DNA from: a virus
IMG/VR virus record: IMGVR_UViG_3300027847_002834
Location: 62,001-126,000 of that record
Reading direction: 5' to 3' (one strand)
Length of the DNA stretch: 64,000 bases
Part shown: positions 14,709 to 55,033 of the stretch, piece by piece
Numbering within the stretch: position 1 is the first letter of the stretch
How the letters are laid out: every line of letters begins with the position of its first letter
Made by a program: the position numbers and the translations under genes
Notes under the pieces: model-generated
Database searches by the model: none
Seen by the model: only the letters and a program-made list of their open reading frames with translations
Told to the model about the DNA's origin: nothing

Positions 14709-15305
14709 CTAGTCCTTGATTAAGGACAAAAACTCAGTTCTAGTCTGAGGTTGATTTTTAAATTTTCCTTTCATAGCTGAGGTTATCATTGAAGCATTTT
14801 GCTTCTTGACACCTCTACATATCATACAGAAATGCTGTGCTTCCATTATTACTCCGACACCATCTGGCTTTAAATACATGTCCATGGTCTCGGCAATGTC
14901 AACAGTCATTTTTTCCTGAATTTGTAATCTACTGGCAAATATATCAACAAGTCTTGCCATCTTAGATAATCCTAATACTTTTCCGTTTGGAAGATAACCT
15001 ATATGACATACCCCACTAAACGGTAGCATATGATGCTCACATATTGAAGTAAAATCAATATTTTTACACATTACTATCTCGTCAGCGAGTTCTCCCTCAC
15101 CTAAACCTTCTTGGAAGAATGTAGATAACACTGTAGAAATATCATGATTGTATCCAGCATACAATTCTATCCATGATTTTACAACCCTGAATGGGGTATC
15201 AATCAATCCTTCTCTTGTTGGATTATCTCCAATAGATGCAAGAATTGATTTAACATTATCCATTGCTCCTGGAAACTTTGCTTCTACTTCTTCTTTAGTT
15301 ATCAT
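14709..15305 (-). CDS. folE: GTP cyclohydrolase I (FolE)
   Basis: 198 aa, full length for the family. It converts GTP to 7,8-dihydroneopterin triphosphate, the first step toward folates and toward 7-deazaguanines. Zinc ligands are visible in TSICEHHMLPFSG (Cys and His) and in FCMICRGVKK (Cys); the substrate-binding KMARLVDIFASRLQIQE helix is intact. The ATG overlaps the stop of the RNA polymerase beta gene by one base, so it is co-transcribed with polymerase 1. With QueD at 33524-33964 and QueC at 5802-6725 it supplies the deazaguanine pathway. Confidence 0.96.
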   Translation of the reverse strand: MITKEEVEAKFPGAMDNVKSILASIGDNPTREGLIDTPFRVVKSWIELYAGYNHDISTVLSTFFQEGLGEGELADEIVMCKNIDFTSICEHHMLPFSGVCHIGYLPNGKVLGLSKMARLVDIFASRLQIQEKMTVDIAETMDMYLKPDGVGVIMEAQHFCMICRGVKKQNASMITSAMKGKFKNQPQTRTEFLSLIKD

Positions 15306-18300
15306 TATAATTCCTCTTTTATTTCGTAGTCTAATCCCATAGTCTTTAATTCTGATTGAAATAATCTGATTGACTGACTTACGTCATCATCATTTTCATC
15401 CAATTTCATATCATCATTTTGGATCATTTTTGAGATAGTAGCATTTCTCTTTTTGATTGAATCCGATTTAGTGGTAAGAAACTCCCACAAATTAGATTCG
15501 GCTCCATGACCTGCTACTGCCCAAACTTCCATTTCTCCTAATCTTTGTCCACCCTTTCTATTCTTGCCATCAAGCGGTTGACATGTTTTAGATGAATATG
15601 GTCCAACTCCTCTATGGGCTATTTTATCCTTTGATATATGATTCATCTTTATAAAATATTGATAACCTACTGCAATCTCATTGATTATATTCTGTTCAAA
15701 ATAAGATGGATCCTTATTGTGTTCATCATCCCCATAAGGATCATAACACGGATACTCCATTCTGGTTCCAGTATAATCCATTGCCTCTGATAATTTATCA
15801 ACTGGGGTTGATTCATACGGAGGCTGAATAACATAGAACGAATCAATATGATTGACAATATACTCTACTGATACTGCTTCTAAAAAGAGTTTCATTTGAT
15901 GAGTATACTCTTTATTTTTAGTACTATCAATAATCTTTATATAGTTTAAAATGAATTCTTTAATTTCTTCTTCTTCTTCTTTATCTTCGAACTTCTTAAC
16001 AATAATGTTTCTCATATCTTGAACGGACATTGCCATATGCAACTCAAAGAGCTGCCCAATATTCATTCTTGAAATCACACCTAATGGGTTCAGTACAACA
16101 TCTGCACTTTGACCATTTTCTAATCTAGGCATTTCATGTTCTGGAACTATCTTTGAAATGATTCCCTTGTTTCCATGCCTGTTCCCAATTTTATCACCAA
16201 CTTCAATTGGTCGTTTATACATTGCTGTTATTTCGAATCTAATCCCATCAATAGATCCACCTTTTACTTTATACGTCCCTCTCTTCTTCTCAGTGTTATC
16301 AATTGCAATTGATTCCAAGAAGTGACCTAACTGATCTTGACTAAGATACGTAGATAGGTTATCAATCATACTAGTCCGATCTTTATTCTTTTGTGCTATC
16401 AATGATGTCACGAATGTATCATATTGTGGAAACTCTTTATTCCACTTGTTAGCAAAAAGTTTTACATCAGTGATAACACAATCTTCAGTTACCACCTTTT
16501 CAAACGGTTCATCAAATATCATATCCAGACTATCATTAATACCAGTCAATGTCTTTATCTTGGCATATATGTCACCTTTAGTCAAAACATCTCCAATATT
16601 AGGAATTCCCTTATATGCAGTTTCATCATCTCCAAGATTCAGTAAAAGCTTATTTGGGGGAACTTCAAATGTCAAGTCTAAATAATGAACTGATGTCAAT
16701 TCATTGTCTTTAACCAATCTATCAGATATTACTATAGCATCTTCAAAGTTATAACCATGCCATATAGTAACAGCAGTCAATAAGTTTTTACCAACAGTAA
16801 GTCTACCTTGTTTCAAATAATTACTTTCTGCAATCATTTGATCCTTCTTGAATGTATGACCTATATCAAAATAAACATGATAAAAATCATATATAGACAA
16901 GAATAACTTTTTGTAACCAATATTAAACGCTTGACATTTCTTGTTATCAAATTGAACAACTATGACACTATCATCCTTGAATACCACAGTACCATCTCTA
17001 GAAGCGACAAAGCAGAATGAGGTATACTTGGTATACATTCCCTCCACTCCAGATTGTACTAGTGGTACATCGAAGTTTTCTAACATAATAGCATGACGTT
17101 GTTGGGAACTAGACATTTGTAATCTAGTTGGATCATCATGTTCTAAAAACGGAACATGTGATATGGCAATTGAATTTCTGCAATCACCTTCCCCTTTATT
17201 AAACGTCAAATCATTTCCAAGCTGTATTGTTGGTGTCAAATATTGAACTGTTCCACAATTTTCTCTATCCCCTGTATCCGCAGGACATACATGACTCTTC
17301 ATTGAAGGATGTATATCTCTTAGGTATGGAGGAACATTTCCCTTTTCAAATCCACCTGGCCCAGACAATGATAACCTAGTTAACATTGCTAACTCTGATA
17401 ATGGGTTGATTGAAAAGTCAAACTGTACAATTGCAGACTGATTTATATTGTTTAGTATAACTTTAGAATTATTCCGAAATCTATTCTTCTTAGATTGTCT
17501 CAATGAAACAATCATCTGGTAGAAGTCTCTAGCCAGATGAGAGTAAACTAATTGTTCAGAAAATCTAATTCGTTTATTTGAATAGTCTAAATCGTCATTA
17601 TCCCAATCTCCTAATGAGCTAATCAATTCCTCTAATACATTTGGTGTGGTGAGGAATTCCTTAGTGAAAATATCTACCTCAGATATTAGAAGAACGTTAT
17701 TAACAATATCAACGTCCTCTTTTCTATTAAAGTACTGAGATAACAATCTCTTCTTGCTTGAAGGAGAGTCAATCAAATCTTTAATATCTTGTGCCAAATC
17801 GTAATCAATAGTAACATTGGTAGATAACGAATCTTCCTTTGTTATACCAAATCTATCCTTAATCTTATCTTCTCCCAAATAAGCATAGACAAGATAACAA
17901 AACGGAACTTCCTTACCAAACAGAGTAACATAGTAAAAGTAAGGTCGTCTAAGACGTTGTTTCTTAGTTAAAGTAAAATTATGAATATTGGTCCTGAGTT
18001 TAATTATATCATTTCTTCGAATCAAAGGTCTATCAAACAATTGAAAGATCGAAACTTTTTTGTTTCCACCAATAAAGAAATGATTATCTACAAGCCAAGG
18101 AATTTCATATTCTAAATCTAACGTCTTATTATCACCATGAACCATCGAAATTTTCAATATTCGAGATATTGTTTGTTTTAATTCAGAGCGGTCAACTTTT
18201 TCTGGTCGTTCAACAGAAATAGAACTAACTCGAATACCATACTGTTCGCCACATTGCAGCATCTTAGTTATATTAGAAACAAGACTGTTTTCCCAGTCTT

Positions 18301-18364
18301 TCTGTCTAAGATCAAATATATTATGTTTACTTAATATATAATCAGGTACACATAGATTTAACAT
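15305..18364 (-). CDS. Multisubunit RNA polymerase 1, beta subunit-like
   Basis: 1019 aa (Escherichia coli RpoB is 1342), so a shortened but single-chain beta. Diagnostic segments: GDKIGNRHGNKG near residue 720, followed by EHEMPRLENGQSADVVLNPLG and SRMNIGQLFELHM, then GKNRKGGQRLGEMEVWA near 960 and HGAESNLWEFLTT. The order matches cellular beta. In phages with such polymerases beta and beta' are often split over several genes; here each is one reading frame. The start overlaps the beta' stop by 7 bases. With the 919-aa beta' it should form a host-independent transcription core. No alpha, omega or sigma was recognised next to it. Confidence 0.93.
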   Translation of the reverse strand: MLNLCVPDYILSKHNIFDLRQKDWENSLVSNITKMLQCGEQYGIRVSSISVERPEKVDRSELKQTISRILKISMVHGDNKTLDLEYEIPWLVDNHFFIGGNKKVSIFQLFDRPLIRRNDIIKLRTNIHNFTLTKKQRLRRPYFYYVTLFGKEVPFCYLVYAYLGEDKIKDRFGITKEDSLSTNVTIDYDLAQDIKDLIDSPSSKKRLLSQYFNRKEDVDIVNNVLLISEVDIFTKEFLTTPNVLEELISSLGDWDNDDLDYSNKRIRFSEQLVYSHLARDFYQMIVSLRQSKKNRFRNNSKVILNNINQSAIVQFDFSINPLSELAMLTRLSLSGPGGFEKGNVPPYLRDIHPSMKSHVCPADTGDRENCGTVQYLTPTIQLGNDLTFNKGEGDCRNSIAISHVPFLEHDDPTRLQMSSSQQRHAIMLENFDVPLVQSGVEGMYTKYTSFCFVASRDGTVVFKDDSVIVVQFDNKKCQAFNIGYKKLFLSIYDFYHVYFDIGHTFKKDQMIAESNYLKQGRLTVGKNLLTAVTIWHGYNFEDAIVISDRLVKDNELTSVHYLDLTFEVPPNKLLLNLGDDETAYKGIPNIGDVLTKGDIYAKIKTLTGINDSLDMIFDEPFEKVVTEDCVITDVKLFANKWNKEFPQYDTFVTSLIAQKNKDRTSMIDNLSTYLSQDQLGHFLESIAIDNTEKKRGTYKVKGGSIDGIRFEITAMYKRPIEVGDKIGNRHGNKGIISKIVPEHEMPRLENGQSADVVLNPLGVISRMNIGQLFELHMAMSVQDMRNIIVKKFEDKEEEEEIKEFILNYIKIIDSTKNKEYTHQMKLFLEAVSVEYIVNHIDSFYVIQPPYESTPVDKLSEAMDYTGTRMEYPCYDPYGDDEHNKDPSYFEQNIINEIAVGYQYFIKMNHISKDKIAHRGVGPYSSKTCQPLDGKNRKGGQRLGEMEVWAVAGHGAESNLWEFLTTKSDSIKKRNATISKMIQNDDMKLDENDDDVSQSIRLFQSELKTMGLDYEIKEEL

Positions 18365-21117
18365 TCTATTTCCGCCACCGGTTTATCATTTGTCATAATT
18401 TTTTCGAGAATTCCTGATGATTCCCCATCTCCAGAAATTATTCCATCTATCAAATATGATTTTGGTTTGCTGAATGCAAGTGCAAGAAGCCATGATTCCC
18501 TAGATGGGATCGACTCAATACTAACCATTTCATAATCTGTTATATCTCTTTCCGGATTAACTCTCCATCTCATTTTCCCATTACGCATCATTTGAGAGAC
18601 TATGCACTCATAATGAACCAATAGGACTAATTTATAAGCCGAGTATACACCGAATAGCTTCATAAGAGAATCGTAATAAGAATTCTTTTCACTTGCATGA
18701 AATACTTTCTTTACACGACTCAAATCATTTACAATATCTTGTTGTTGAGAAGCGTCTCCAGTTGATTTCTTTGCTGCACCTGATGTATGAAACGTTCTTA
18801 ACACTAACTGGGTTGATACTTCTCCCATTGCTTGTGCTGCAATAATGCCAATGTATTTAGAATGTAAATACTTATGACTTGACCCATAACATGTTTGACA
18901 CACGCCATGGTCTTCACAAAACAACGGAGATCGAACATGTACTAATTGTCCCAGAAATGAATGATAGTTACCATATGTAATTTCAACTAATCCATCATCT
19001 GTTACACTATACCGTCCTATTAGAGACTTTGCTAATTTCAATCCTCCATTTTCCTTCTCGGGAATATTAATTGCAAGAGTATCTACTGTACCACAATCTT
19101 CGTTTTTACCCAATTCAAGATTAACAGAACAATACACCAATTTTCTAGTTAAGTATCCAGAATCTCCAGTGTTAAGTGCTGTATCTAATAATCCTTTTCT
19201 TGAACCATAGCAAGAGATGAAAAAATCATCTCTAGTCAATCCACCAATTAGATTACTCTTAATTGGTGTTTCAATGATCTTCCCTGCAAAGTTAGAAACA
19301 AATCCTCTACACAGCACAATCTGGTTCGCTTGATCCCATGATCCTCTTGAACCCGAATCGATGAATAGGGAATAAGGGAATGCTTCTCGTACCTTCTCTT
19401 GTATTTCTGTTGATTGAATCTTAGAGAATTTATCACCCCACTCTAATTCAGGATCATCCATTATATCGGACACTATTGTATCAGCGCCTTTTAATAACAT
19501 ATTCTTTAATGACATAGTACAACCAAATCGAGATGTAGACTTAAATCCTAACACCTTTATATCGTCTAAAATATCACACACTTGATCAGAGTTTCTAGTT
19601 CTAGCCAAATCATCCAACAAAACTCTCAACAGTTTTTTATCAATTACTTCATTGATGAATGGATAATCTGGCAATATGCTATTGAATTCAACTCTTCCTT
19701 CGTATGTATCAATGCCATCTGCTATCACCTTTTTAGATTCGTCTTCTTTGGTTAAGAGATATAATCCTAAAATTATATCCTGATTAACACCAAGAATAAG
19801 ACTTCCAGTAGTTGGACAGATCAGATTGTTCTTTATAGATAACTTCTCTTTGCATTCTGCCGTGGTTTCTTCTGTCAACGGTCTATATATTGCCATTTGA
19901 TCTCCATCAAAATCTGCATTATATGGCTCGCATACCATCGGATGTATTTTAATTACATTGTCAGTATTGATTAATACATCAAATGACAATATTCCCATTC
20001 TATGTAACGTTGGTTGTCTATTAAGAATAACGGATGTACCCTCACAACAGTTCTTTACAACATCTAATAATGAGAGATCTTTAATTTTTATACATGAATC
20101 AATATGATCTATTGCTGAATCATATCGTTTGAATGTTCTCTTCTCTAGTAATTTGTTTGCTAGTTCCAATTTATACAATTCAAGTGCAAGCACATAAGGT
20201 ATAGAGCATTGATTTAATCTCAAACTAGGTTCAGGTGCAATAACTGCTCTCCCTGAAAAATCAACTCTCTTGCCCAAAATCGATCCTCTGATCAATCCTG
20301 TTTTCTTACTCAACTTCTTGAATATAAAATCATAAAGAGACGTTACATGTCGTTGAAGATTTCTAAATGTGGCTTCCCGTATTCCTGCAACCGCAGCAGT
20401 TTCTAAATGGTCGTCCTTCATTAAAATCGAGAAATTCAAGATAGTTGTTAAATATCTATTCATCTCATCTCGCATTTGAGCATCCTTTGTCTTAGACACT
20501 GGTCTAAACTCAGGTGGTAAGATAATTATATTAGACATGTAAAATTTAGACAAGTGAGTCTCAACTATTTTCCACATCGCATCTTTATCTTTCTTTCTAT
20601 CACACTCAAACTTTACGAGATCGTAAACTCCATCAACACCAATAAACACAGGTTTATCATCTGGTAATGTTGGAAGTTCCTCTTCATCTGATTCCCTCTC
20701 TTTGAATATTCGTTCAACTAATACATAACTAGCCAACTCTTCATCAAAATAATATGCATAAATCTTTTCATTAAAGAACAGATTCTCTATCATGTCCCTC
20801 ATTTTTGTCTTTCCTGCCCTAATAATTAATTGATACATAATAGGGTTTAGTATTGGAAAGGGTAACACTATTTTTGCAAATCTTTTTCGTCTCTCATTAG
20901 AATATGTAATGTCTACATCACATGTTCCACATTTATCTCCAATTCTAGATCTTCCCCAATACGTTTTACAACCACACCATGTAGTTTTGACTGGTCCGAA
21001 TATCTTTTCACTGAAAAGACCTTCTGGGTGAAATCCGTGCTTTGAATAAATTTTAGAACTTGATACTTGGGGTATACCCTCGCAGAATTCATCTACGTTA
21101 AAGAAATCTAATTTCAC
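18358..21117 (-). CDS. Multisubunit RNA polymerase 1, beta' subunit-like
   Basis: 919 aa, GTG start at 21117 behind AGGA. The catalytic magnesium loop NADFDGDQMA is at residues 400-409, with Asp402, 404 and 406. The N-terminal zinc site is present (WCGCKTYWG and KCGTCDVDI, near 47-67), as is the second zinc site CEDHGVCQTCYG. RVDFSGRAVI and NRQPTLHRMG precede the active site, and the trigger-loop region LRTFHTSGAAKKS near 775 is uninterrupted. This is a complete, compact beta'. It lies directly downstream of the E2-like gene cluster in the same orientation. Confidence 0.94.
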   Translation of the reverse strand: MKLDFFNVDEFCEGIPQVSSSKIYSKHGFHPEGLFSEKIFGPVKTTWCGCKTYWGRSRIGDKCGTCDVDITYSNERRKRFAKIVLPFPILNPIMYQLIIRAGKTKMRDMIENLFFNEKIYAYYFDEELASYVLVERIFKERESDEEELPTLPDDKPVFIGVDGVYDLVKFECDRKKDKDAMWKIVETHLSKFYMSNIIILPPEFRPVSKTKDAQMRDEMNRYLTTILNFSILMKDDHLETAAVAGIREATFRNLQRHVTSLYDFIFKKLSKKTGLIRGSILGKRVDFSGRAVIAPEPSLRLNQCSIPYVLALELYKLELANKLLEKRTFKRYDSAIDHIDSCIKIKDLSLLDVVKNCCEGTSVILNRQPTLHRMGILSFDVLINTDNVIKIHPMVCEPYNADFDGDQMAIYRPLTEETTAECKEKLSIKNNLICPTTGSLILGVNQDIILGLYLLTKEDESKKVIADGIDTYEGRVEFNSILPDYPFINEVIDKKLLRVLLDDLARTRNSDQVCDILDDIKVLGFKSTSRFGCTMSLKNMLLKGADTIVSDIMDDPELEWGDKFSKIQSTEIQEKVREAFPYSLFIDSGSRGSWDQANQIVLCRGFVSNFAGKIIETPIKSNLIGGLTRDDFFISCYGSRKGLLDTALNTGDSGYLTRKLVYCSVNLELGKNEDCGTVDTLAINIPEKENGGLKLAKSLIGRYSVTDDGLVEITYGNYHSFLGQLVHVRSPLFCEDHGVCQTCYGSSHKYLHSKYIGIIAAQAMGEVSTQLVLRTFHTSGAAKKSTGDASQQQDIVNDLSRVKKVFHASEKNSYYDSLMKLFGVYSAYKLVLLVHYECIVSQMMRNGKMRWRVNPERDITDYEMVSIESIPSRESWLLALAFSKPKSYLIDGIISGDGESSGILEKIMTNDKPVAEIEC

Positions 21118-29283: not shown

Positions 29284-31407
29284 TCACTCGTTTGTTGAGT
29301 TTGTTGAATATCTAATGTCCGGTGAATTATCTATATATTGTATACAATCTGACGCGGATACTATTTTATCCTTTATATTCTTATATGCCTCCTTTTCCCA
29401 ATCTTTAGGTATTATGTCAGATTCTTTAGTCTTCTTTTTGGGTGGAGTTAATAACAATCCAAACTTTTTCCTTACTGTTTCTGAGAGAAATCCCCATGCC
29501 CTACAAATGACATCTCCACCTAATAATGAAAGATTCATGATCACCTTTTCAAAAGTTTCAGGATCATTAAAAAGCATTGGTCGGGTATATGAATTTTTAC
29601 AATAGAAATATAAAGGTTTATCACTATCGTGGGAACCATCAGGCAAAAATACACCTATAACAGTTACACCATTAGGATGTACCCAAGTTAATCTTCTATC
29701 AGAGTTTAAGATGAAAGATGATGAAACAGTTTCGGCATTACGCATTTGATCTAAAATTCGTATATATACAGATAATTCTTCAACATCAATTTTATCATCT
29801 ATAGCCTCTTTAATTACGTCTACATCTATTAATTTGCCGTCCTTAATAATTTCAACTTCATCTTTTCCATTTATTGTTCTTGAGGGAGACAGCCCTCTAT
29901 TATCATCCTTTTCATCATCTATTATTAAATCTCCTGCACCAATAGCAATCATTTTAGATTTAGATGATTTTTTAGATACTTTAAGAAATTCTGATTCTGA
30001 TTTGCATTTAACCTTTAATATTTTGTGATAATACGATTCATTATAAGCACTATCATAATTTAGAATCTGTAATAACGATTCCATTTTTATTAAATGCTCT
30101 TCAATTTTTTCCGTGGGTCCAGAAAATTTAATATTTCCTAAATCACCTAAGCATACTGAACCATCAGAAGATACATTTGGATGGGTGGATTCTGTAAAAG
30201 AAAATCCATCTCCATTAATATATAACCATTTTACTCTAAACATTCTTAACTCTTTAGGAATTATTTTACAAACACCATCTCTAAAAAATCGATCAGGTAA
30301 TATATCTATCTTCTTTTTCCATAACAAATTAGATCTATAATTACTACTAAATCGTTCATGGGTAGCTACTTCCCATCCATATTTAGTTAACAGACCAGAT
30401 ATAGTCAATCCTCTATGAAACGATTGTTGTGAGCTGTCTCGATTTTCATTTGAAGCTCGTTCTAATACTTTGGTTAATAAACTTGCATATATTTCAGATT
30501 TCCCTGATTGATAGATTGTGTCCCACTCTGCGGTAGCCATAGTGCGTTTTAATTCTTTCAAAATCCCTTCGGAATCTAAAGTAAAGTCTGCATCTGATGG
30601 GGAATATTTACATTCCTCTAATCTCTTTATAAGTTTACATATAGATTCATCTTTTCCGTCAGCTTCCCAATGTTTAATATCTATATCATGAAGTCTATTA
30701 TGAACGAATGTAATTCGATCAAGAATGTTTTCTAGTAATACATTAACCTTTTCTACATCTCTTGATCGTCCACTTCTCATCAAATATCTTAATACTGGCC
30801 ATTTTATATAAGTGGTTCCATCCACACACATAAACCCAACTAAAACTGAATTAGTTCCAACAAAGAAGACCTCTGATACTAAACTATCTTTGACATCACA
30901 AATATCTTGTAATAATCTTGAATTTACAACTGAAGTAAGATTTGCAAATCCTGGATTTCTAAATCTCATATTTGGACATATATTGACACATAATTTTCTA
31001 AATGTTACATCGGAATCATTTAAAGGAGTTCCTAAATATTTAGAAAATGACGTAGCCATACTTGCATGTGAAACTCTAGGATTACATGTAATATATTTTA
31101 AAAGATCACTAAGTCCAAAGTTTGTTATAACTAACTTGTGATTCATCTTTAATGACTTACCATATTCATCCAAGGTTAGCTGTTCGTCATAAACTAGACT
31201 ATATGAATTCAACCTATGGGTGTCACCTGGATCGTCAGATATGACATCTCTTACTACTACATTATTTACCAAATCTAAATATTTATCATTTACCAAAAGT
31301 TTAGAAAGACATTTATTTAGCTTTTCTATAAATCTTCGTTCAAATGTATAATCTCTATGGTTATCTGGGGTAAACAAACGAGAAAGGGTTTCTTGTGTTC
31401 TGCTCAT
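29284..31407 (-). CDS. Large protein with an E2-like HPN-Cys domain
   Basis: 707 aa. THPNVSSDGSVCLGDLG places His409-Pro410-Asn411 and Cys419 at the exact spacing of the E2 active site (HPN then Cys ten residues after His). It is preceded by strands (MFRVKWLYINGDGFSF) and followed by a helical segment with LLQILNYDSAYNESYY, as in bacterial E2-like families. About 330 N-terminal residues are helical and unrecognised; a Lys/Asp-rich linker (520-540) leads to a C-terminal domain of about 150 residues. It could combine conjugating and substrate-recognition functions. Seven bases separate it from the E1 gene. Confidence 0.65.
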   Translation of the reverse strand: MSRTQETLSRLFTPDNHRDYTFERRFIEKLNKCLSKLLVNDKYLDLVNNVVVRDVISDDPGDTHRLNSYSLVYDEQLTLDEYGKSLKMNHKLVITNFGLSDLLKYITCNPRVSHASMATSFSKYLGTPLNDSDVTFRKLCVNICPNMRFRNPGFANLTSVVNSRLLQDICDVKDSLVSEVFFVGTNSVLVGFMCVDGTTYIKWPVLRYLMRSGRSRDVEKVNVLLENILDRITFVHNRLHDIDIKHWEADGKDESICKLIKRLEECKYSPSDADFTLDSEGILKELKRTMATAEWDTIYQSGKSEIYASLLTKVLERASNENRDSSQQSFHRGLTISGLLTKYGWEVATHERFSSNYRSNLLWKKKIDILPDRFFRDGVCKIIPKELRMFRVKWLYINGDGFSFTESTHPNVSSDGSVCLGDLGNIKFSGPTEKIEEHLIKMESLLQILNYDSAYNESYYHKILKVKCKSESEFLKVSKKSSKSKMIAIGAGDLIIDDEKDDNRGLSPSRTINGKDEVEIIKDGKLIDVDVIKEAIDDKIDVEELSVYIRILDQMRNAETVSSSFILNSDRRLTWVHPNGVTVIGVFLPDGSHDSDKPLYFYCKNSYTRPMLFNDPETFEKVIMNLSLLGGDVICRAWGFLSETVRKKFGLLLTPPKKKTKESDIIPKDWEKEAYKNIKDKIVSASDCIQYIDNSPDIRYSTNSTNE

Positions 31408-45290: not shown

Positions 45291-48200
45291 TTATCCTATA
45301 TCAGTCTCTAACATCATTCCACGCATATAAGTATCAAATAGATCCTTAGTGGGAGATGTTCTTGGGGTTCTGTATTCTGCACTTCCTGTCTGAATAATAT
45401 CAGCTACAATTTGATCTTTAGTTACATGATCATCAGCTAAAGGTCCAAAGAATTCTCTTAAAATATTAGTTGCTCCATGATTTATAATAGAATAACTATC
45501 CATCTCACCAATTCTCTGTCCTCCACCCTTACCAGACATAGCCTGTTTAGTAACAGAGCTTACCATTCCAGTTGATCTTGCTGACAATTTAATTCCACTT
45601 TGTTGTTCAAGTTTCTTGTAGTATAGGTATCCTACAGCAATATCAGTGGATGTACTTGTTCCATACTCTTTAATTTTTAATTTATATCCTTCCTTTGCAC
45701 CAACTAACCGTAAGGCAGCTCTAATATGTATAATAGTTGGCTCTTGGAATGGAGGAACAATGATAGGAATAAATCCACCTCTATCTACAACAGTTTTTAA
45801 CCATTTTTGATATGTAGCATTGGTCATTGAATTGACTGCAGTAACCACTTGTCTAGAATAGGACTTTCCTTTAGTTCCATCTAATACGCCTAACACTTTA
45901 GTAAGTAGAGCAATAGTCTTATCATTTTTTCGTGGTCCATAACCAATTATTTTAGTAGCCATGAATTTAGAAATTAAGGATAAATATAATTCTTTAATGG
46001 TTGAGGGGTTCATTCTATTTACAATAGCAATAGGATTAAGAATGATATCTACATGTTCACCCCAAGGAGTTAGTGGCATATTCTCTTCTTTTTCAATTTT
46101 AGCAATAACGCCCTTTCCACCATAGTTGTTAGTGATCTTGTCTCCAAGTTCAGCAACCTGAGTTTCTTCTATTTTAAATCTGATTAATACTCCAGAAAAC
46201 TGCTGTTTCTCAGAACCAACTCTAGCAGTAAATTTCTTTGGTGTTGCGTGACCTTGTGCTTCCTCATATTTTTCTTTATATGCAGCATGTGCCTTCTTTA
46301 ATGCAGGAAATTTACTTATAGGAGAATTTGCATAAACCTCTAGGGAAATAATCTTTCCACCTGGAGATTTTGTTATTAGCTGACCTTGCTGTATTTCATC
46401 TTCTTCGAGACCAACAACATCTTCCACTTCTTTAGAAATTCTCATTAGAAGTGGTTCGCCCCGCTTAGTCAATACTCCTTCTTGATTAATAAAACTAACT
46501 CTGTCTGTTGGTTTTACCAAAATCTCAATTTCATGATATGCTTCAGATGTTAATTTTGTTTTTGCAATTTTGTCTGAAACAATATATCCATCCTCATATG
46601 AATAACCTTTCCATGTCATAACTGCACACAATAAATTAGTTCCTACAGAAATAACGCCATCTTGAATATGTTTCCCTTCCGCAACAATCTGATTCTTTTT
46701 AACCTTCTGATTCTCAACCACAATAGGCTTGAAGTAATTTAATGCACTTTGTCCCTGACCAGCTCTTAATATCTTAGTAGCAAGAGATATAGTTTGAAGT
46801 CTACCAGATTTTAGTTTTATAACAATAGCATTAGTGGTAATACTTCTAACTATACCATCACTAATTGCTTTCTTAACATAGTTATCAGATAACATAGATG
46901 TTAATACGCTTTCATATCCAGTTTGAACAATAGGAGCTTCTTCTCCATTTATAGGAATAGCCTGCCGACCTTGGCTTCCTGCGAACATAACTCTAGCTCC
47001 ATCACAAGATCCGATAAATGGAATCATAACTGAATTTACCCCTAAGATTCCTGACTTCTCATCTCTGCCATCAGTCTTATCAACAAAGGCACCTCTAGAA
47101 TTAGTTATAGCAGCACCAACAGAAAGCTGATTAATTATTCCTACATTTTCACCTTCTGGTGTATCCATTGAATCTATATTGCCATAATATGTAGGATGAA
47201 TATTTCTAGCTTGTTTTGTTATTGCATTAGAATCTGGTATACCACCTTCACCAATAGGCTTAAGTCTAGTCAAGCATGATAATTCTTCAGTAGGATTAAT
47301 ATTCTCTAAATCATCCATCAGTTTAGAGTTAACAATTCTCTTTATAGCTTCTGTTACATCTAACTTGTATTCAGCATCTTTAAACCCTGAAATTCTACGC
47401 TCTCTGTAATCTGTATATGACCCCAAAATCAATTTCTGAATTTGGTGGGCAAATACTTCTGATGTTCTAATTCTTTGCTTAGATATATCATTTCGGTCAT
47501 CAACTCTTTCCTTTACTAACTCTTCACAAATATATAAAACAATTTGGGGATATGTAAATGGTAGAAGTTTTGATTTCAGTACTTGAGTAGCAACAGGTTC
47601 CATTATATTCTCTAATACTTGCTTTACTTTCCATGTAGAGTTTCTATTACCTGTTATTTTGATTAATGCCTGTTCAAATGTTTTTTGATCCTCTAAGTTA
47701 TCTTCTGTAAAAATATTTGGAGATTCTGCAAATGAATTTAATAAAATTCTTGCGGCATCTGTTTTATAATCTACAACAATAAAGTTACCATCACTCAATA
47801 TCAGATAATTGATTCCTTCAGGTGGTTCTGTGTCAACTATTTTATATTTAACACCAAACAATCGACATGTCTTCTTAAATCCAATGTAATAACCCATGAG
47901 AACAATTAATGGGAGTTTATATCCCCCTATCAATATCTGAAAGTATTGCTTTTTAACGGTCTTCTTGAGGTAAATAGTAGAAACGGCATATAGCGTTTCT
48001 AACTTGGCTTGTCCCTTTTTAACAAAGAAAATAGGATCTAATATGATCTGATATGTAAGATACTTCTTCTTTCCATTTATTAAAAATGTACCATCACCCA
48101 TTAGACGGGGTATTTGGATTTCTACTTCATGTTTATTTTTCTTGTCATCTTGTAATACAACAATATACCTATCATATAAAGAAGGATTCAAGTCACCAGG

Positions 48201-49490
48201 ATCAGATGGGATAGGTTCCTTTTTCATACTGAATAGTTTCAATGGATAATCTTTTTTCTCCAACAATTTAAATGAATTTAATAAATCCTTTTCAAATGAG
48301 GTAGCAAAATCTAATTGACGTTTATTTAATATATGACTAGGATCTTTATGTTCAACTAACCCATGTATATCAACTTTAGAATGAATCAAATCTCTATTAT
48401 TGTTTTGTGGTGGATCTCGTTTAACCACATCAGATAACAATTCCTTCTTAACCTGATCCAACATATACTTTCTTCGTTCAGGAACAACTGTTTCAACTGT
48501 TTCATTTGATTTTTTAAGATCTCCAGATACACTAAACAAAATAGATTTTGTTGCTAGAGTTGTCGCTGCATTCTTATCAATACTTCTAGATAAAATACTT
48601 CTCCTAACTTGAGGTGGCATTGCTTTCAGGTAATTTGCAACTGCATATCTAATAGTATCTCTTTCTTCTTCTGTTTTTTCTATAATCGGATCAACTGTTA
48701 CTGTATCTTCTGTATCTGAAATAATTTCATCAGTCGTCTTGTTATTGGGTAACTTAACAACCATGTCATCATTAGGAACTATATCAATTTTACCAACTGC
48801 CAAATCAGCAGCAGCCATTGCTTCATCTTGACTTATAAAATCAGTTTTAGTCGATATAAGGGACTTTAAGATATTTCTAATTCTTGTATAGGGGAGACTA
48901 TCATTTTCATTCCCCAACATTGAATATTTAGTTATTCCGTTTTTGATGATCGCTATTAGGAAATATTCAAAAGGATTTTCACCTTCAGTCTTTAACATTT
49001 CTAGAATTGGCCAAGCTCGTCTTTTAGTTATTCCTCTTGGTAATTCCTCATCTAGATTCACAACATACAGTAAGACTTTCTTTCGGCCTTCATGTAAGCC
49101 TCTAAGACCAGATAAATATTCCTTTATCCTTGAACTAACAACGTTTCTTCTGTAATTTCCTTTTTTGAATTTTACATCAATAGCATCCAAGTATCTAGTT
49201 AAATCAATATAAATATTATCTGCTTGACGTTGTAAATTTCTAGCTACAATTAATCCCAGCTTTCTATAAGGAAGAATTGCCTTACCATTAATCATAACTC
49301 TAGGATATCTAGACGCTATAGGAACAATCTTTCTGACATGTGTTTTCTTTATCTTAAGATGTTCATATGTTGTTATAAAATCCACATTCTCTGGATAGAA
49401 AAAAATGGAATATGAACTAGCCCGTGAATTATCAATTCCTATTTGGGCAGTAGAAAACGGGAATAATTTTAACCGATCAATAAATATCAT
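45291..49490 (-). CDS. Multisubunit RNA polymerase 2, beta subunit-like, with N-terminal extension
   Basis: 1399 aa. Beta motifs: RNIHPTYYGNIDSMDTPEGENVG (in parts), GDKITNNYGGKGVIAKI near residue 1115, NIMPLT-like EENMPLTPWGEHVDIILNP, VNRMNPSTIKELY, and SGKGGGQRIGEMDSYSI with NHGATN near 1330. Motif residues are more divergent than in polymerase 1 (YGGKG instead of HGNKG). The first about 380 residues precede the recognisable beta protrusion and contain no known domain; the stretch 230-310 is acidic and probably disordered. Downstream of the M48 peptidase and 141-aa gene, separated by 3 bases. Possible virion-packaged polymerase subunit. Confidence 0.9.
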   Translation of the reverse strand: MIFIDRLKLFPFSTAQIGIDNSRASSYSIFFYPENVDFITTYEHLKIKKTHVRKIVPIASRYPRVMINGKAILPYRKLGLIVARNLQRQADNIYIDLTRYLDAIDVKFKKGNYRRNVVSSRIKEYLSGLRGLHEGRKKVLLYVVNLDEELPRGITKRRAWPILEMLKTEGENPFEYFLIAIIKNGITKYSMLGNENDSLPYTRIRNILKSLISTKTDFISQDEAMAAADLAVGKIDIVPNDDMVVKLPNNKTTDEIISDTEDTVTVDPIIEKTEEERDTIRYAVANYLKAMPPQVRRSILSRSIDKNAATTLATKSILFSVSGDLKKSNETVETVVPERRKYMLDQVKKELLSDVVKRDPPQNNNRDLIHSKVDIHGLVEHKDPSHILNKRQLDFATSFEKDLLNSFKLLEKKDYPLKLFSMKKEPIPSDPGDLNPSLYDRYIVVLQDDKKNKHEVEIQIPRLMGDGTFLINGKKKYLTYQIILDPIFFVKKGQAKLETLYAVSTIYLKKTVKKQYFQILIGGYKLPLIVLMGYYIGFKKTCRLFGVKYKIVDTEPPEGINYLILSDGNFIVVDYKTDAARILLNSFAESPNIFTEDNLEDQKTFEQALIKITGNRNSTWKVKQVLENIMEPVATQVLKSKLLPFTYPQIVLYICEELVKERVDDRNDISKQRIRTSEVFAHQIQKLILGSYTDYRERRISGFKDAEYKLDVTEAIKRIVNSKLMDDLENINPTEELSCLTRLKPIGEGGIPDSNAITKQARNIHPTYYGNIDSMDTPEGENVGIINQLSVGAAITNSRGAFVDKTDGRDEKSGILGVNSVMIPFIGSCDGARVMFAGSQGRQAIPINGEEAPIVQTGYESVLTSMLSDNYVKKAISDGIVRSITTNAIVIKLKSGRLQTISLATKILRAGQGQSALNYFKPIVVENQKVKKNQIVAEGKHIQDGVISVGTNLLCAVMTWKGYSYEDGYIVSDKIAKTKLTSEAYHEIEILVKPTDRVSFINQEGVLTKRGEPLLMRISKEVEDVVGLEEDEIQQGQLITKSPGGKIISLEVYANSPISKFPALKKAHAAYKEKYEEAQGHATPKKFTARVGSEKQQFSGVLIRFKIEETQVAELGDKITNNYGGKGVIAKIEKEENMPLTPWGEHVDIILNPIAIVNRMNPSTIKELYLSLISKFMATKIIGYGPRKNDKTIALLTKVLGVLDGTKGKSYSRQVVTAVNSMTNATYQKWLKTVVDRGGFIPIIVPPFQEPTIIHIRAALRLVGAKEGYKLKIKEYGTSTSTDIAVGYLYYKKLEQQSGIKLSARSTGMVSSVTKQAMSGKGGGQRIGEMDSYSIINHGATNILREFFGPLADDHVTKDQIVADIIQTGSAEYRTPRTSPTKDLFDTYMRGMMLETDIG

Positions 49491-49921: not shown

Positions 49922-50785
49922 TTAATGTCCAATTTTCTTGTTTTTCATTGCAGATATAATTTTATCTGCTGAAATATTAAATATGCCCGCCACCTTTGTT
50001 GCTACATTTTTTGGTTTATCAATTTTTTCATTTTTCATTGATCCTCTGGCTTCTTCTATTCTTTTTCTCATATCGGGATGAGTTTTGAATATTTCAGTAA
50101 ACTTGTTAACTGCGACCATAAATTTAGACTTGGATTTATTTAAATTCATTTTGTATGCATTAGCTAGAATTTTAAATGCTTGAATTAACTCCTTTCCGTA
50201 TCCCATCTTCACAGCAAAATCATCAGCTCTATACTCAAATCGTCTTGACATATAATTAGGAACTGTGGCTACTAATAGAGCAGTGACAAACATAAAAATA
50301 CCTACTATTTTAAGGTCTTTGATATTCCCGGACTTCATGAGATCCAGTGGCTTGCCGATCTCTAAATTAAGTGACACTAACACCTGAACAAGAATAAAAG
50401 CACTAGATCTCTTAATAACATCATTATTAGTAGAATGTGCCACTTCGTGTAATAATATCGATATTGCTTGTCTATCATTAGTTAATTTTACAAGACTATC
50501 GGTTATGTACAAATTTTTACCTCCAAATGTAAACGCATTTGGGATTGGCTTTTTTCCACCACTCATGTCATCTATTTCATGAACGATCCATCCACCTTCC
50601 TTCTTTGCCTTCTTCATAATATCATTAAGAAGTTTAGTAAACTTCTTATGAATTTTAGTAGAATTTGCTAACTTAGCAGCTCGGAGCATACACACCGTAA
50701 TCATAATAACTACAAAAACAGGAGTTGCCATGAAGGTTGGACTATCCATTAACCCTTCTTTGACTTCTAAATATTTTTTATTCAT
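49922..50785 (-). CDS. M48-family membrane metallopeptidase (HtpX/Ste24-like)
   Basis: 287 aa. Zinc motif HEVAH in SILLHEVAHSTNND (near 131-144) and the third ligand Glu in FEYRADDFAVK near 188. Two hydrophobic segments, one N-terminal (ATPVFVVIMITVCML) and one before the FEYRAD motif (IVGIFMFVTALLVATV), place it in a membrane. HtpX-type enzymes cut misfolded membrane proteins. It is rare in phages. Encoded between the two polymerase 2 subunits, it could process virion proteins or act on host membrane proteins during entry. Confidence 0.88.
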   Translation of the reverse strand: MNKKYLEVKEGLMDSPTFMATPVFVVIMITVCMLRAAKLANSTKIHKKFTKLLNDIMKKAKKEGGWIVHEIDDMSGGKKPIPNAFTFGGKNLYITDSLVKLTNDRQAISILLHEVAHSTNNDVIKRSSAFILVQVLVSLNLEIGKPLDLMKSGNIKDLKIVGIFMFVTALLVATVPNYMSRRFEYRADDFAVKMGYGKELIQAFKILANAYKMNLNKSKSKFMVAVNKFTEIFKTHPDMRKRIEEARGSMKNEKIDKPKNVATKVAGIFNISADKIISAMKNKKIGH

Positions 50786-50860: not shown

Positions 50861-53800
50861 TTAAAGTGTACCATTTACCATTTGTTCCAATATGCTTTCA
50901 CTCTGGTCTCTATCATAAGTGAGACCAGTCATAACTGCTAATCCCGGATTTTCAAAACTAAGAGCAGATAACCAACTTTCCAATGAAGGTATCTTTTTAA
51001 GACTTACTACTATTGCATTATAATCTTTGTTTAATCTTGCTGGGAATGACGGGTTAGATTTATCTCGTAAAAGTTGACTTGCGAGAATTTCAAAATGAAC
51101 CATATCTGCACCTGTCATTGGGCCATACTGATCATAAATTTTCATACAAAAGTGATCGGCTGATTTCCATGGTTTCTTACCAGACAGTAAATGATTAATT
51201 ATTCTAACCTTATCTGAAAAATCAGATGTAGAAGCAGGACATGTAAATACTGCTGAGTTATCAGAAAACGGAATAGTGATTATATTACCATCATCTTGTA
51301 CTTGGCGTCCCTTCAATGGAATATGAGTATGAAAATCCAATGCACAATCAATCACAACTCTATCTTTTGTAACTATCTCAAAATAACCATACTCTAATTC
51401 AAATGTATCACCAACTTTCTTAATATCCTTTTTCGGATCTAAAAATTGATTTCTATTAATGATAATACTTCCAGATGTTTTAGTCACTAAGTCATTGATC
51501 TTTTGTGAAAACATTTTAGAGAAATACTGACTAGTCTTAACATCCATATTTGCGGTTAATGGCTTTATGATATCCACAGCAGTAACAGATATCGCTCCAC
51601 CACTATGAAATGTATTATGATTTTGAATTCCTCCCAACATATAATCTTTAGTATTGGTTTGGATATCGTATACAGGATAATCCCATTTCCAAATATCTTT
51701 TACTGTAGATACTACATCAAAGCCACGAACAGGCAAGTCTCTTCTTATTTTTATTGGTAGAATTTTACCATTTGCTTTTAGTTTTTCACTACTAAGATTC
51801 TCATTTTTTAGAAATCGTATATCAATTGCAAAATTAGGTCTTTTTTGTTTACACCCCTTAGATCCTTCTTTATCTGGAGGGACAATACATGTATTACATT
51901 TATAACCTAACTTATCACATATAGCTTTAATCTGCTGAACCAGATAATAACTACAAGTGTACACCCTGCAACACGTACTAGCTGTATTAAATACAGTCCC
52001 GTCTCCATCAATCATTCCAGATAGAAAATCTTTTAACCATGATTTACTAAAATCTATAAAATTCTCTGGGAGTCTCTTTTCCCATGCATACGAACCATAA
52101 ACAACATCATTAACATATCTATCATTATCTACAATAGTAATATATTTATCATAAACTCTAATATCATTATATTGTTTTTTCAATTCTGATATTATTCTAG
52201 GCTTTATATAATTATCATGTTGGGAGATTATGTTCCCTTTAGTATTTCTGCCTTCTCCCGCTTTACATCCTTCGGCACAATATATTCCAGCAACATAACC
52301 ACTTACACCAGGAACTACTCTCTTTTTATTATTAGATGCAATGGTCGAATCTATCCATATGGCATCATGTTTTGTTAACTCAGATGCTTCTATCTCAATT
52401 AATTCTTCATCGGTTATTGTAAATGGTGTTCGGGTAGATTGTGTTTCATTATATAATCTATCCCCAATAAGCCTACACTTGTCATTAGAATATTTTGAAT
52501 GAATAGAAGTTTTCTTGATCCATAATGGATGATTGGATTGGCACACCAACGTATGGCCACTTTTTGTAGTTATGAACATCATCTTTTCAGTAGGATCATG
52601 TTTTTGTATTGTAAGTGCCTTAACCTCTCCTTCCTTTCCTTGTACGGTAAAAGTAGATGGTAATTCTTTTGTTTCTTTTCCATCAATAATATCAATATCA
52701 GATGATACTGAATTCCATAAATCCTTAAATGCTATAAGGTTAGAATTATGATGAACTAATCCATCTGAACATTTCATAATCATCTGGGTTCCACGTTCAC
52801 CAAAGATCTGACCAGCCAATACTCCAACGTAAGGAGTTCTATTTCTTTCTAATAGATCACCATAACAAGTTTTGCATATTTTAGGAGATATACAATACAG
52901 TGGAGACTTTAAAGAAATGACTTTACCCATAGCTTTACTGGGATCTAGTTTAATAGGATTACCAACTTTATTAAGATAGTATCGGCCTTCTAATCGTCTT
53001 GCTATATCTGGAGTTACTTTTAATTGGAATCCCCGTTGGGTCTTACAATTAAAAATAGTAGGATCAGCTTCTACCCGTTGAAGTGCGAATACTAACTGTC
53101 TGCTCAAATATCCAGTATCAGCAGTATTCAATACACGATCAGCAATACCACGTCTACTTCCTGCTCCACTCATAAAGAAATCTTTACTGGTCATTCCTTC
53201 TGCATATGACTGGGCAATTGGCTCTTGGATATTCCCTTCATTATCAGAAATTAATCCTTTAGCTACAAGTATCTGTCTAGCTTGATCATAACCACCTTTT
53301 AGAACTCCAGCTTTTCCTAACGTCCCAATATTGCCATCTTTCTTTTCTAAATGAGCACCAATATCAACAGTGGATTGTTGAATTATTCTATCAGCCTCTT
53401 GTGGTGATTTTCCTACTAATTGTTTTTTAGCATCGACAATAGATTTTGGAATTTCAAGGTCTTCAAGGCCAAATGAAGGAGAACCAATTGTTCCATACTT
53501 ATAAGATATTTTTAATATCTTATCAGCCCAATCAACATATTTTTCTCTTCCATATGTTATAAAGTATTCATTAGCTATATTGTTTAGCTTCTTCTGATTC
53601 ACTTGTTCATTTATAAATGTATGACCATCAGGAAAGATATCATTAAACATAATCCTTCCAACTGTGGTATCAAGTGTTCCATACTTTACTTTATCATTAA
53701 TAGGCAATCCTTTTAACTGTCCAGGTCTAGTTACCCTTACTGCCGCCTTTCTAGACTTCGAATCCTTAGTAAGCAAATAGATACCAATTGCACTATCTTT

Positions 53801-55033
53801 ATCAAACGAATCACTAATTTGATTTATTGAGTCCTTTGATGTGGTGACCATCATCTTGTCCTTTGCTTCCTCAATAGCCTGTCTAGTTATTGGGACATAG
53901 ACTGCCATTTGATCCCCATCAAAGTCTGCATTATAAGCTGAACATTTCATGGGATTAATTCTAATGGTATTTCCGTCTACTAATACAGGTTTAAATGCTT
54001 GCACCGATTCAGCATGGAGACTAGGATCTCTTTTTGCTAATACAATTTTATCTTTGATTGCATTATTTGTTGAAACTACTAATATGTCATATAACTCTTG
54101 AGATATTTCATCATGCTTTGATATTGCAATGAATAGTCTTCTTAGACTTAATGCAGATAATTTACTTCCGTCAAAACGTTCTAATGCATCAGAAAGCTGT
54201 TCTTTTGGTATATTTCCACTATTCAATAAATCAAATATAATAAATGGTTCAAATAGTTTAACAAGAAGCCTTAATGGTATTCCTAATTCGTCTGCACGTA
54301 GTTCGGATGCAGCTCCAGATATAACTGCCCTAGCTGTAAAATCTACTCTCTTACCCAATAAATCACTTCTAAGTAATCCTTTCTTCTTAGAGACTTTACT
54401 TGTAAGATAATTGTATAATTCGAGTACTAACTCATGCATTCTAAATGCTAATACATCATATACGGGTCCTGATGTTTGTGTTCTTAATTGTAATGACAAT
54501 CTAAGAATTTTAAGGTAGTAATCATTTAAAGGATTAACTGTAATATCCCCAGTATCAGTGATCTCAAGTTGTCTATAATCTGGAGGAATAATGATACACT
54601 TATCAGTAAATGCATGTCCTTTCTTTGTATAGAAATCAACCATTCCAATTAAATCAGCTCTCGATTTTGAATCTGCTGAAAATTTTATTTTTGACCAATT
54701 ATCAACCACTGAAGACATTCCCGTTATCTCACCATCCTCATCAAGAATCAATTCACCGTTCTGTAGAGTAAATGTTTTCTCTCCTGACATTGCAGTTATA
54801 ACAGATCTCTTTAATCTCCTTATAGTACCAAATAACGCTGGATGTAAAACATTACAATTTAAATCAATGAAAGAATATATTTTTCTTCTATCTGAAGTAT
54901 CAACTGCCCCAAAGATCTTTTCAGAGAAAAATCCTTCGGGGTGAAATGTTGTAGTTTTTCCTACGAAATATTCAGTAGATGTAACAGGAACTAATTTAGA
55001 TGTCTCCTTATCTATATTCAACAATTTTAGCAT
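50861..55033 (-). CDS. Multisubunit RNA polymerase 2, beta' subunit-like, intein-containing
   Basis: 1390 aa as translated, about 1004 aa after intein removal, close to the 919 aa of polymerase 1 beta'. The catalytic loop NADFDGDQMA is at residues 368-377 (Asp370, 372, 374), with RVDFTARAVISG before it and a zinc site CISPKICKTCYG after it. The N-terminal zinc ribbon present in polymerase 1 is missing. The trigger-loop segment GTQMIMK...TFHSGGA is interrupted after Lys754 by an intein ending at Asn1140. Precedes M48 peptidase in the operon and pairs with the beta at 45291-49490. Confidence 0.93.
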   Translation of the reverse strand: MLKLLNIDKETSKLVPVTSTEYFVGKTTTFHPEGFFSEKIFGAVDTSDRRKIYSFIDLNCNVLHPALFGTIRRLKRSVITAMSGEKTFTLQNGELILDEDGEITGMSSVVDNWSKIKFSADSKSRADLIGMVDFYTKKGHAFTDKCIIIPPDYRQLEITDTGDITVNPLNDYYLKILRLSLQLRTQTSGPVYDVLAFRMHELVLELYNYLTSKVSKKKGLLRSDLLGKRVDFTARAVISGAASELRADELGIPLRLLVKLFEPFIIFDLLNSGNIPKEQLSDALERFDGSKLSALSLRRLFIAISKHDEISQELYDILVVSTNNAIKDKIVLAKRDPSLHAESVQAFKPVLVDGNTIRINPMKCSAYNADFDGDQMAVYVPITRQAIEEAKDKMMVTTSKDSINQISDSFDKDSAIGIYLLTKDSKSRKAAVRVTRPGQLKGLPINDKVKYGTLDTTVGRIMFNDIFPDGHTFINEQVNQKKLNNIANEYFITYGREKYVDWADKILKISYKYGTIGSPSFGLEDLEIPKSIVDAKKQLVGKSPQEADRIIQQSTVDIGAHLEKKDGNIGTLGKAGVLKGGYDQARQILVAKGLISDNEGNIQEPIAQSYAEGMTSKDFFMSGAGSRRGIADRVLNTADTGYLSRQLVFALQRVEADPTIFNCKTQRGFQLKVTPDIARRLEGRYYLNKVGNPIKLDPSKAMGKVISLKSPLYCISPKICKTCYGDLLERNRTPYVGVLAGQIFGERGTQMIMKCSDGLVHHNSNLIAFKDLWNSVSSDIDIIDGKETKELPSTFTVQGKEGEVKALTIQKHDPTEKMMFITTKSGHTLVCQSNHPLWIKKTSIHSKYSNDKCRLIGDRLYNETQSTRTPFTITDEELIEIEASELTKHDAIWIDSTIASNNKKRVVPGVSGYVAGIYCAEGCKAGEGRNTKGNIISQHDNYIKPRIISELKKQYNDIRVYDKYITIVDNDRYVNDVVYGSYAWEKRLPENFIDFSKSWLKDFLSGMIDGDGTVFNTASTCCRVYTCSYYLVQQIKAICDKLGYKCNTCIVPPDKEGSKGCKQKRPNFAIDIRFLKNENLSSEKLKANGKILPIKIRRDLPVRGFDVVSTVKDIWKWDYPVYDIQTNTKDYMLGGIQNHNTFHSGGAISVTAVDIIKPLTANMDVKTSQYFSKMFSQKINDLVTKTSGSIIINRNQFLDPKKDIKKVGDTFELEYGYFEIVTKDRVVIDCALDFHTHIPLKGRQVQDDGNIITIPFSDNSAVFTCPASTSDFSDKVRIINHLLSGKKPWKSADHFCMKIYDQYGPMTGADMVHFEILASQLLRDKSNPSFPARLNKDYNAIVVSLKKIPSLESWLSALSFENPGLAVMTGLTYDRDQSESILEQMVNGTL
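51614..52771 (-). mobile_element. LAGLIDADG-type intein in the polymerase 2 beta' subunit
   Basis: 386 residues, from Cys755 (CSDGLVHHNSN) to Asn1140, followed by Thr as the +1 residue. Block B is HTLVCQSNHPLW (near 827-838), block F is PVYDIQTNTKDYMLGG and block G is IQNHN, so splicing residues Cys1, His, Asn and Thr+1 are present. Two homing endonuclease motifs are GYVAGIYCAEG (912-922) and FLSGMIDGDG (about 1001-1010). Block A is unusual. The insertion point is in the invariant trigger-loop region of beta', a functionally essential site. Confidence 0.9.

Follow-up and report, generated by a model that had tools for sequence, protein, structure and literature searches.

A predicted self-splicing intein with a LAGLIDADG homing endonuclease in the trigger-loop codons of a phage RNA polymerase beta' gene

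The gene for the beta' subunit of one of the two RNA polymerases of the phage studied here is interrupted in its trigger-loop codons, very probably by an intein that carries a LAGLIDADG homing endonuclease and is capable of self-splicing and homing. The window analysed covers 64,000 bases of a virus record that is 193,518 bases long (positions 62001-126000) and encodes two multisubunit RNA polymerases, with all four subunit genes on the minus strand (Table 1).

Position of the insert in the polymerase-2 beta' gene

The polymerase-2 beta' gene consists of a single open frame of 1390 codons containing the sequence NADFDGDQM, and its product was identified as an RNA polymerase beta' subunit by matches to the Pfam models RNA_pol_Rpb1_2 (4.5e-31) and Rpb1_5 (2e-14) and to TIGR02386 (2.4e-83). 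Apart from the intein, both the beta and the beta' subunits of polymerase 2 are intact. An M48-type peptidase gene (window 49922-50785; PF01435, 1.8e-22) is located between the two, and a 707-aa protein encoded elsewhere in the window (29284-31407) gave a weak, sub-threshold hit to PF00179, the family of ubiquitin-conjugating enzymes (2.9e-4). The polymerase-1 beta' is 100% identical to a copy found in another sample, on a 64.5-kb contig (L347, IMGVR_UViG_3300009786_000012) that contains no polymerase-2 beta'.

When aligned with bacterial beta' chains of solved structure, GERGTQMIMK/TFHSGGA of polymerase 2 corresponds to GEPGTQLTMR/TFHTGG, and the insertion point falls between R933 and T934 in E. 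coli numbering. The insert is in frame, starts with Cys, ends with His-Asn and is followed by Thr at position +1; its G+C content is 31.7%, compared to 33-34% in the exteins. A preliminary description of the window had proposed a 386-aa intein interrupting the trigger loop at exactly this place, and its coordinates and junctions were correct to the residue. In the trigger loop of the E. coli enzyme, it is R933 and H936 that stabilise the transition state during nucleotide addition (PMC8421135). The insert pushes the equivalents of these two residues 386 residues apart, and the unspliced beta' precursor can therefore reasonably be expected to be inactive.

Table 1. RNA polymerase genes of the window and features of the predicted intein (positions refer to the window)
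Feature	Position	Strand	Remarks
Polymerase 1 beta	15305-18364	-	
Polymerase 1 beta'	18358-21117	-	trigger-loop site uninterrupted
Polymerase 1 uninterrupted trigger-loop motif	18775-18816	-	STQLVLRTFHTSGA
Polymerase 2 beta	45291-49490	-	1399 aa; pairs with the intein-bearing beta'
Polymerase 2 beta' gene	50861-55033	-	1390 aa with intein, 1004 aa after predicted splicing
Polymerase 2 beta' catalytic motif	53912-53932	-	NADFDGD
N-extein	52772-55033	-	754 aa; ends GERGTQMIMK, last Lys equivalent to E. coli R933
Intein	51614-52771	-	386 aa; LAGLIDADG homing endonuclease within a Hint splicing domain
Cys1, first splicing nucleophile	52769-52771	-	Cys common to all phage trigger-loop inteins
Block B	52526-52540	-	QSNHP; catalytic His conserved
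LAGLIDADG motif 1	52268-52294	-	VAGIYCAEG; catalytic Glu present
LAGLIDADG motif 2	51998-52024	-	LSGMIDGDG; catalytic Asp present
Blocks F and G	51614-51679	-	YPVYDIQTNTKDYMLGGIQNHN; terminal His-Asn
C-extein	50864-51613	-	250 aa; begins TFHSGGA
+1 nucleophile	51611-51613	-	Thr
Trigger-loop His	51605-51607	-	equivalent to E. coli H936

Splicing domain and endonuclease

The splicing residues C1, H385-N386 and T+1 are all present, and the two LAGLIDADG-type motifs noted in the preliminary description were recovered with both of their acids intact. In block B, the Thr of the usual TxxH is replaced by Gln (QSNH), as it is in all phage trigger-loop members; this comparison covered 12 other trigger-loop intein sequences, in all of which block B was the same as in the phage studied here. 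Submitted alone, the insert scored 23.4 bits against the LAGLIDADG_3 model PF14528, which is above the curated cut-off of 22.5, and matched the Intein_splicing model PF14890 at 1.9e-5, below the gathering cut-off. When the latter model was run over the whole phage genome, it missed the intein and gave a single weak match elsewhere, and a PDB sequence search with the intein returned nothing useful.

An AlphaFold model of the insert, built from eight natural sequences, reached a mean pLDDT of 64.7 and a pTM of 0.66, with low pLDDT values in its central parts. The model aligned over its full length to endonuclease-bearing inteins (7qsu, 1.4e-14 by Foldseek; 2cw7, Z 17.9). Its splicing part, to which both ends of the insert contribute, aligned to mini-inteins at Z 14-17 and 2-3 Å, among them 6rpp (Z 17.3, 2.1 Å over 148 residues), and its centre matched I-DmoI (Z 13). 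Sequence motifs and predicted fold together confirmed the insert as a putative full-length intein of the Cys1/Asn type with a LAGLIDADG homing endonuclease.

The same phage encodes a 305-aa protein (L015 2827-3744, record bases 188827-189744) with a weak Hint-like domain that ends in LLVHN and is followed by a long proline-rich tail. Its matches to the Pfam models PT-HINT (0.0042) and Intein_splicing (0.0071) are both below cut-off, and the +1 residue after HN is Gln, which is no nucleophile.

Empty sites and related phage inteins

The preliminary description had also suggested a comparison with intein-minus relatives. In L025, the nearest polymerase-2 relative (48% identical), the sequence runs uninterrupted through the site as GERLTQTIMMTFHTGG, and about 28 further polymerase-2 relatives are uninterrupted at the trigger loop as well; among the approximately 31 polymerase-2 homologues, an insert was present only in L026 and L236. 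In the beta' tree, the phage pairs with the intein-free L025 at 100/100 support, and the presence of inteins on this tree requires at least three changes within the sampled homologues. Because the nearest relative and about 28 others are uninterrupted, these comparisons indicate that the insert is a mobile element and not a polymerase domain. We looked for the two findings named beforehand as speaking against an intein, a normal polymerase insertion in relatives or mutated splicing residues, and encountered neither. A split beta' gene, with the break about 25 residues past the trigger loop, occurs in many of the polymerase-2 relatives (L426, L429, L433, L437, L442, L448, L449 and L450), in some cases with small extra reading frames between the halves.

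At least 11 other viral contigs carry homologous inteins, of which one sits at the identical site and 10 at a site three residues downstream (L026, L236, L287, L292, L295, L456, L459, L461, L462 and L463). These relatives were recovered only through alignments and site patterns; tblastn searches yielded no direct relatives in 50,697 phage records, and none in viral contigs when P0001 alone was used as query. The downstream site lies after FH (KH in L026) and before TGG or SGG, with the general form (T/A)FH^TGG. All phage trigger-loop inteins start with Cys1, contain Q-x-N-H-P as block B and have Thr or Ser at +1. Joined by the zinc-site inteins of L292 and L295, they make up a single clade as opposed to the archaeal A'' inteins (100/100). 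The intein at the identical site (L466, IMGVR_UViG_3300044615_002205) reads GERGTQLSMK^C...GN^SFHSGGA and differs from that of the phage studied here in its GN end, its +1 Ser and its host protein, a fused polymerase of 2867 aa including the intein; the grouping of these two inteins is weakly supported (75/45), both being on long branches. The downstream-site inteins share the clade, Cys1, QxNHP, the HN end and the trigger-loop location with our intein, and most of them reside in fused beta-beta' polymerases related to those of Vibrio phage D69 and Salmonella phage Arash. An assignment of these fused polymerases to crAss-like phages was rejected, as the closest isolates are Vibrio phages D69 and D181 and Salmonella phage Arash. 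The trigger-loop intein of L236 (7440-8183, 248 aa) has lost both endonuclease acids and kept every splicing residue, as would be expected if selection maintains splicing.

L292 (7528-8757) and L295 (7552-8781) contain a second related intein, with Ser1, a TxxH block B and Cys at +1, in the zinc-binding motif CQK^CYG of the polymerase, about 40 residues ahead of their trigger-loop intein. In Vibrio phage D69 (L468) the polymerase gene is continuous, but in D181 (L467) and D148 it is interrupted by a segment, probably a mobile intron, in which a homing endonuclease is annotated.

Potential targets of the endonuclease

To represent the empty site, we rejoined both flanks of the intein and compared the 22 bases at the centre. 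Between 13 and 19 of these core bases of the rejoined site recur in intein-free polymerase-2 homologues. The polymerase-1 copy of the same phage is uninterrupted (STQLVLR/TFHTSGA), as had been described, and shares 14 of the 22, whereas up to 17 of 22 are matched at unrelated places in the same phage genome. Since LAGLIDADG enzymes accept only a small number of mismatches and the polymerase-1 site matches less well than chance sites do, the base counts make polymerase 1 an unlikely target, and the earlier idea that its coding sequence could be an off-target of the endonuclease was not borne out.

Proposed mechanism and alternative explanations

We propose that beta' is translated as a 1390-aa precursor, which would be unable to form a working trigger loop. 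Cys1 and the +1 Thr would then mediate an N-S shift and transesterification, followed by cyclisation of Asn386 and ligation to a 1004-aa beta' with an intact GTQMIMKTFHSGGA motif; from the conserved residues and the structural model, we strongly infer that polymerase-2 beta' is spliced. During co-infection, the excised protein or the precursor would cut intein-minus homologues at their trigger-loop codons, and repair would copy the intein into the cut homologue. The trigger loop may represent a haven for such an element because the codons for catalytic residues have little freedom to vary and any inexact removal of the intein would kill the polymerase. The distribution of the intein among the polymerase-2 homologues is sporadic, and a homologous copy occupies the identical site in another polymerase type (L466).

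The SI3 domain of bacterial polymerases is a sandwich-barrel domain inserted downstream of the catalytic His. A lineage-specific structural insertion like SI3, which occurs in Gram-negative bacteria and cyanobacteria, would be kept in the mature polymerase, and bacterial polymerases do bear domains in their trigger loops (PMC10120043, PMC10802570). We nevertheless discount this explanation almost entirely, because the insert combines the Hint and LAGLIDADG folds with a complete set of splicing residues, is absent altogether from close relatives, and separates the equivalents of R933 and H936, which places it upstream of both the His and the SI3 position. It is also very improbable that the intein is dead or slow, leaving polymerase 2 inactive through poor splicing and the work to polymerase 1. 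The unusual block B (QxxH) and the presence of a second polymerase would agree with such a loss of function, but all nucleophiles are present, polymerase-2 beta and beta' are otherwise intact, and the same block B occurs in 12 other trigger-loop inteins, one of which has lost the endonuclease but kept its splicing residues.

If splicing awaited a signal such as redox state, metal, temperature or infection stage, the intein could time the activity of polymerase 2; control of transcription by splicing had been raised in the preliminary description. Conditional splicing is documented elsewhere, e.g., for mycobacterial DnaB (PMC6195587, PMC7360933), and the position would suit a perfect on/off switch. 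We regard this regulatory role as improbable, since the sequence indicates no sensor, the patchy distribution fits a parasite, and most polymerase-2 homologues do without the intein, so that a switch must be dispensable for the life cycle. The endonuclease might further serve as a weapon between co-infecting phages by cutting the polymerase gene of a rival, with the intein as its protected carrier. Both endonuclease acids are intact, up to 19 of the 22 core bases are shared by intein-minus polymerase-2 homologues, and a phage homing endonuclease nicking the polymerase gene of a competitor has been reported in a review (PMC13282480); because ordinary homing accounts for the same facts, we consider a weapon function doubtful, though conceivable. 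Our preferred explanation is a self-splicing and homing intein in the polymerase-2 beta' gene, and polymerase 2 would accordingly be marked as an enzyme that requires protein splicing before it can act.

Comparison with known systems

Inteins in the largest subunit of RNA polymerase are already known from archaea. The phage inteins described here add a clade within the same catalytic motif, occupying two sites that are separated by three codons and do not coincide with the archaeal one, each directly before a Thr or Ser able to serve as splicing nucleophile. They provide a natural series, including L236 with homing lost and the splicing residues kept, in which the settling of inteins in catalytic motifs can be studied, as can the way an endonuclease lineage moves from one site to another.

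The known inteins of eukaryotic and algal RNA polymerases (RPA2, RPB2, RPC2 and chloroplast RpoB) all reside in the second-largest subunit, unlike the one described here. Crass-like phages contain inteins and group I introns in core genes, and the polymerase genes of their zeta group are heavily disrupted; the available part of the corresponding survey (Yutin et al. 2021, PMC7886860) names TerL inteins and describes no trigger-loop intein. The papers searched, from a collection with limited coverage of subscription journals, contained neither a phage trigger-loop intein nor a statement that assigns the archaeal site to the trigger loop. We also searched 84,980 species genomes for a cellular intein at the exact site, using the degenerate DNA pattern GEPGTQxTx[RKNSHQ]C, which covers only Cys-starting inteins after GEPGTQ, and obtained none.

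The archaeal A'' inteins (Mja rPol A'', Nph rPol A''; NF011491/PRK14898) share with the phage intein the location in the trigger-loop motif of the largest subunit, the LAGLIDADG endonuclease, the HN end and the +1 Thr, and differ by Ser1, a full length of 450-510 aa and their placement in a separate clade. The alignment of NCBIfam PRK14898 crossed the phage junction, yet the same allele was rejected because the archaeal inteins are located three residues upstream. Twenty intein-bearing archaeal A'' genes read GTQM^S...HN^TM(R/N)TFH, with TLRTFH in two of them, and in intein-free archaeal genes the match to the A'' model starts at the same Thr; the phage intein has neither the GTQM^TMR site nor Ser1 and falls outside the archaeal clade. 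A special kinship to the archaeal A'' inteins was likewise rejected, as an archaeal NrdD intein scores equally. The archaeal and the two phage insertion points thus lie within six residues, each immediately before Thr or Ser. That the trigger loop is a convergent target, reached at these three sites by separate lineages, and that the phage endonuclease at the same time acts as an inter-phage weapon against mutation-constrained codons, is in this combined form a speculative and rather unlikely proposal. The compared sequences themselves point to a case of one catalytic motif repeatedly invaded by different intein lineages.
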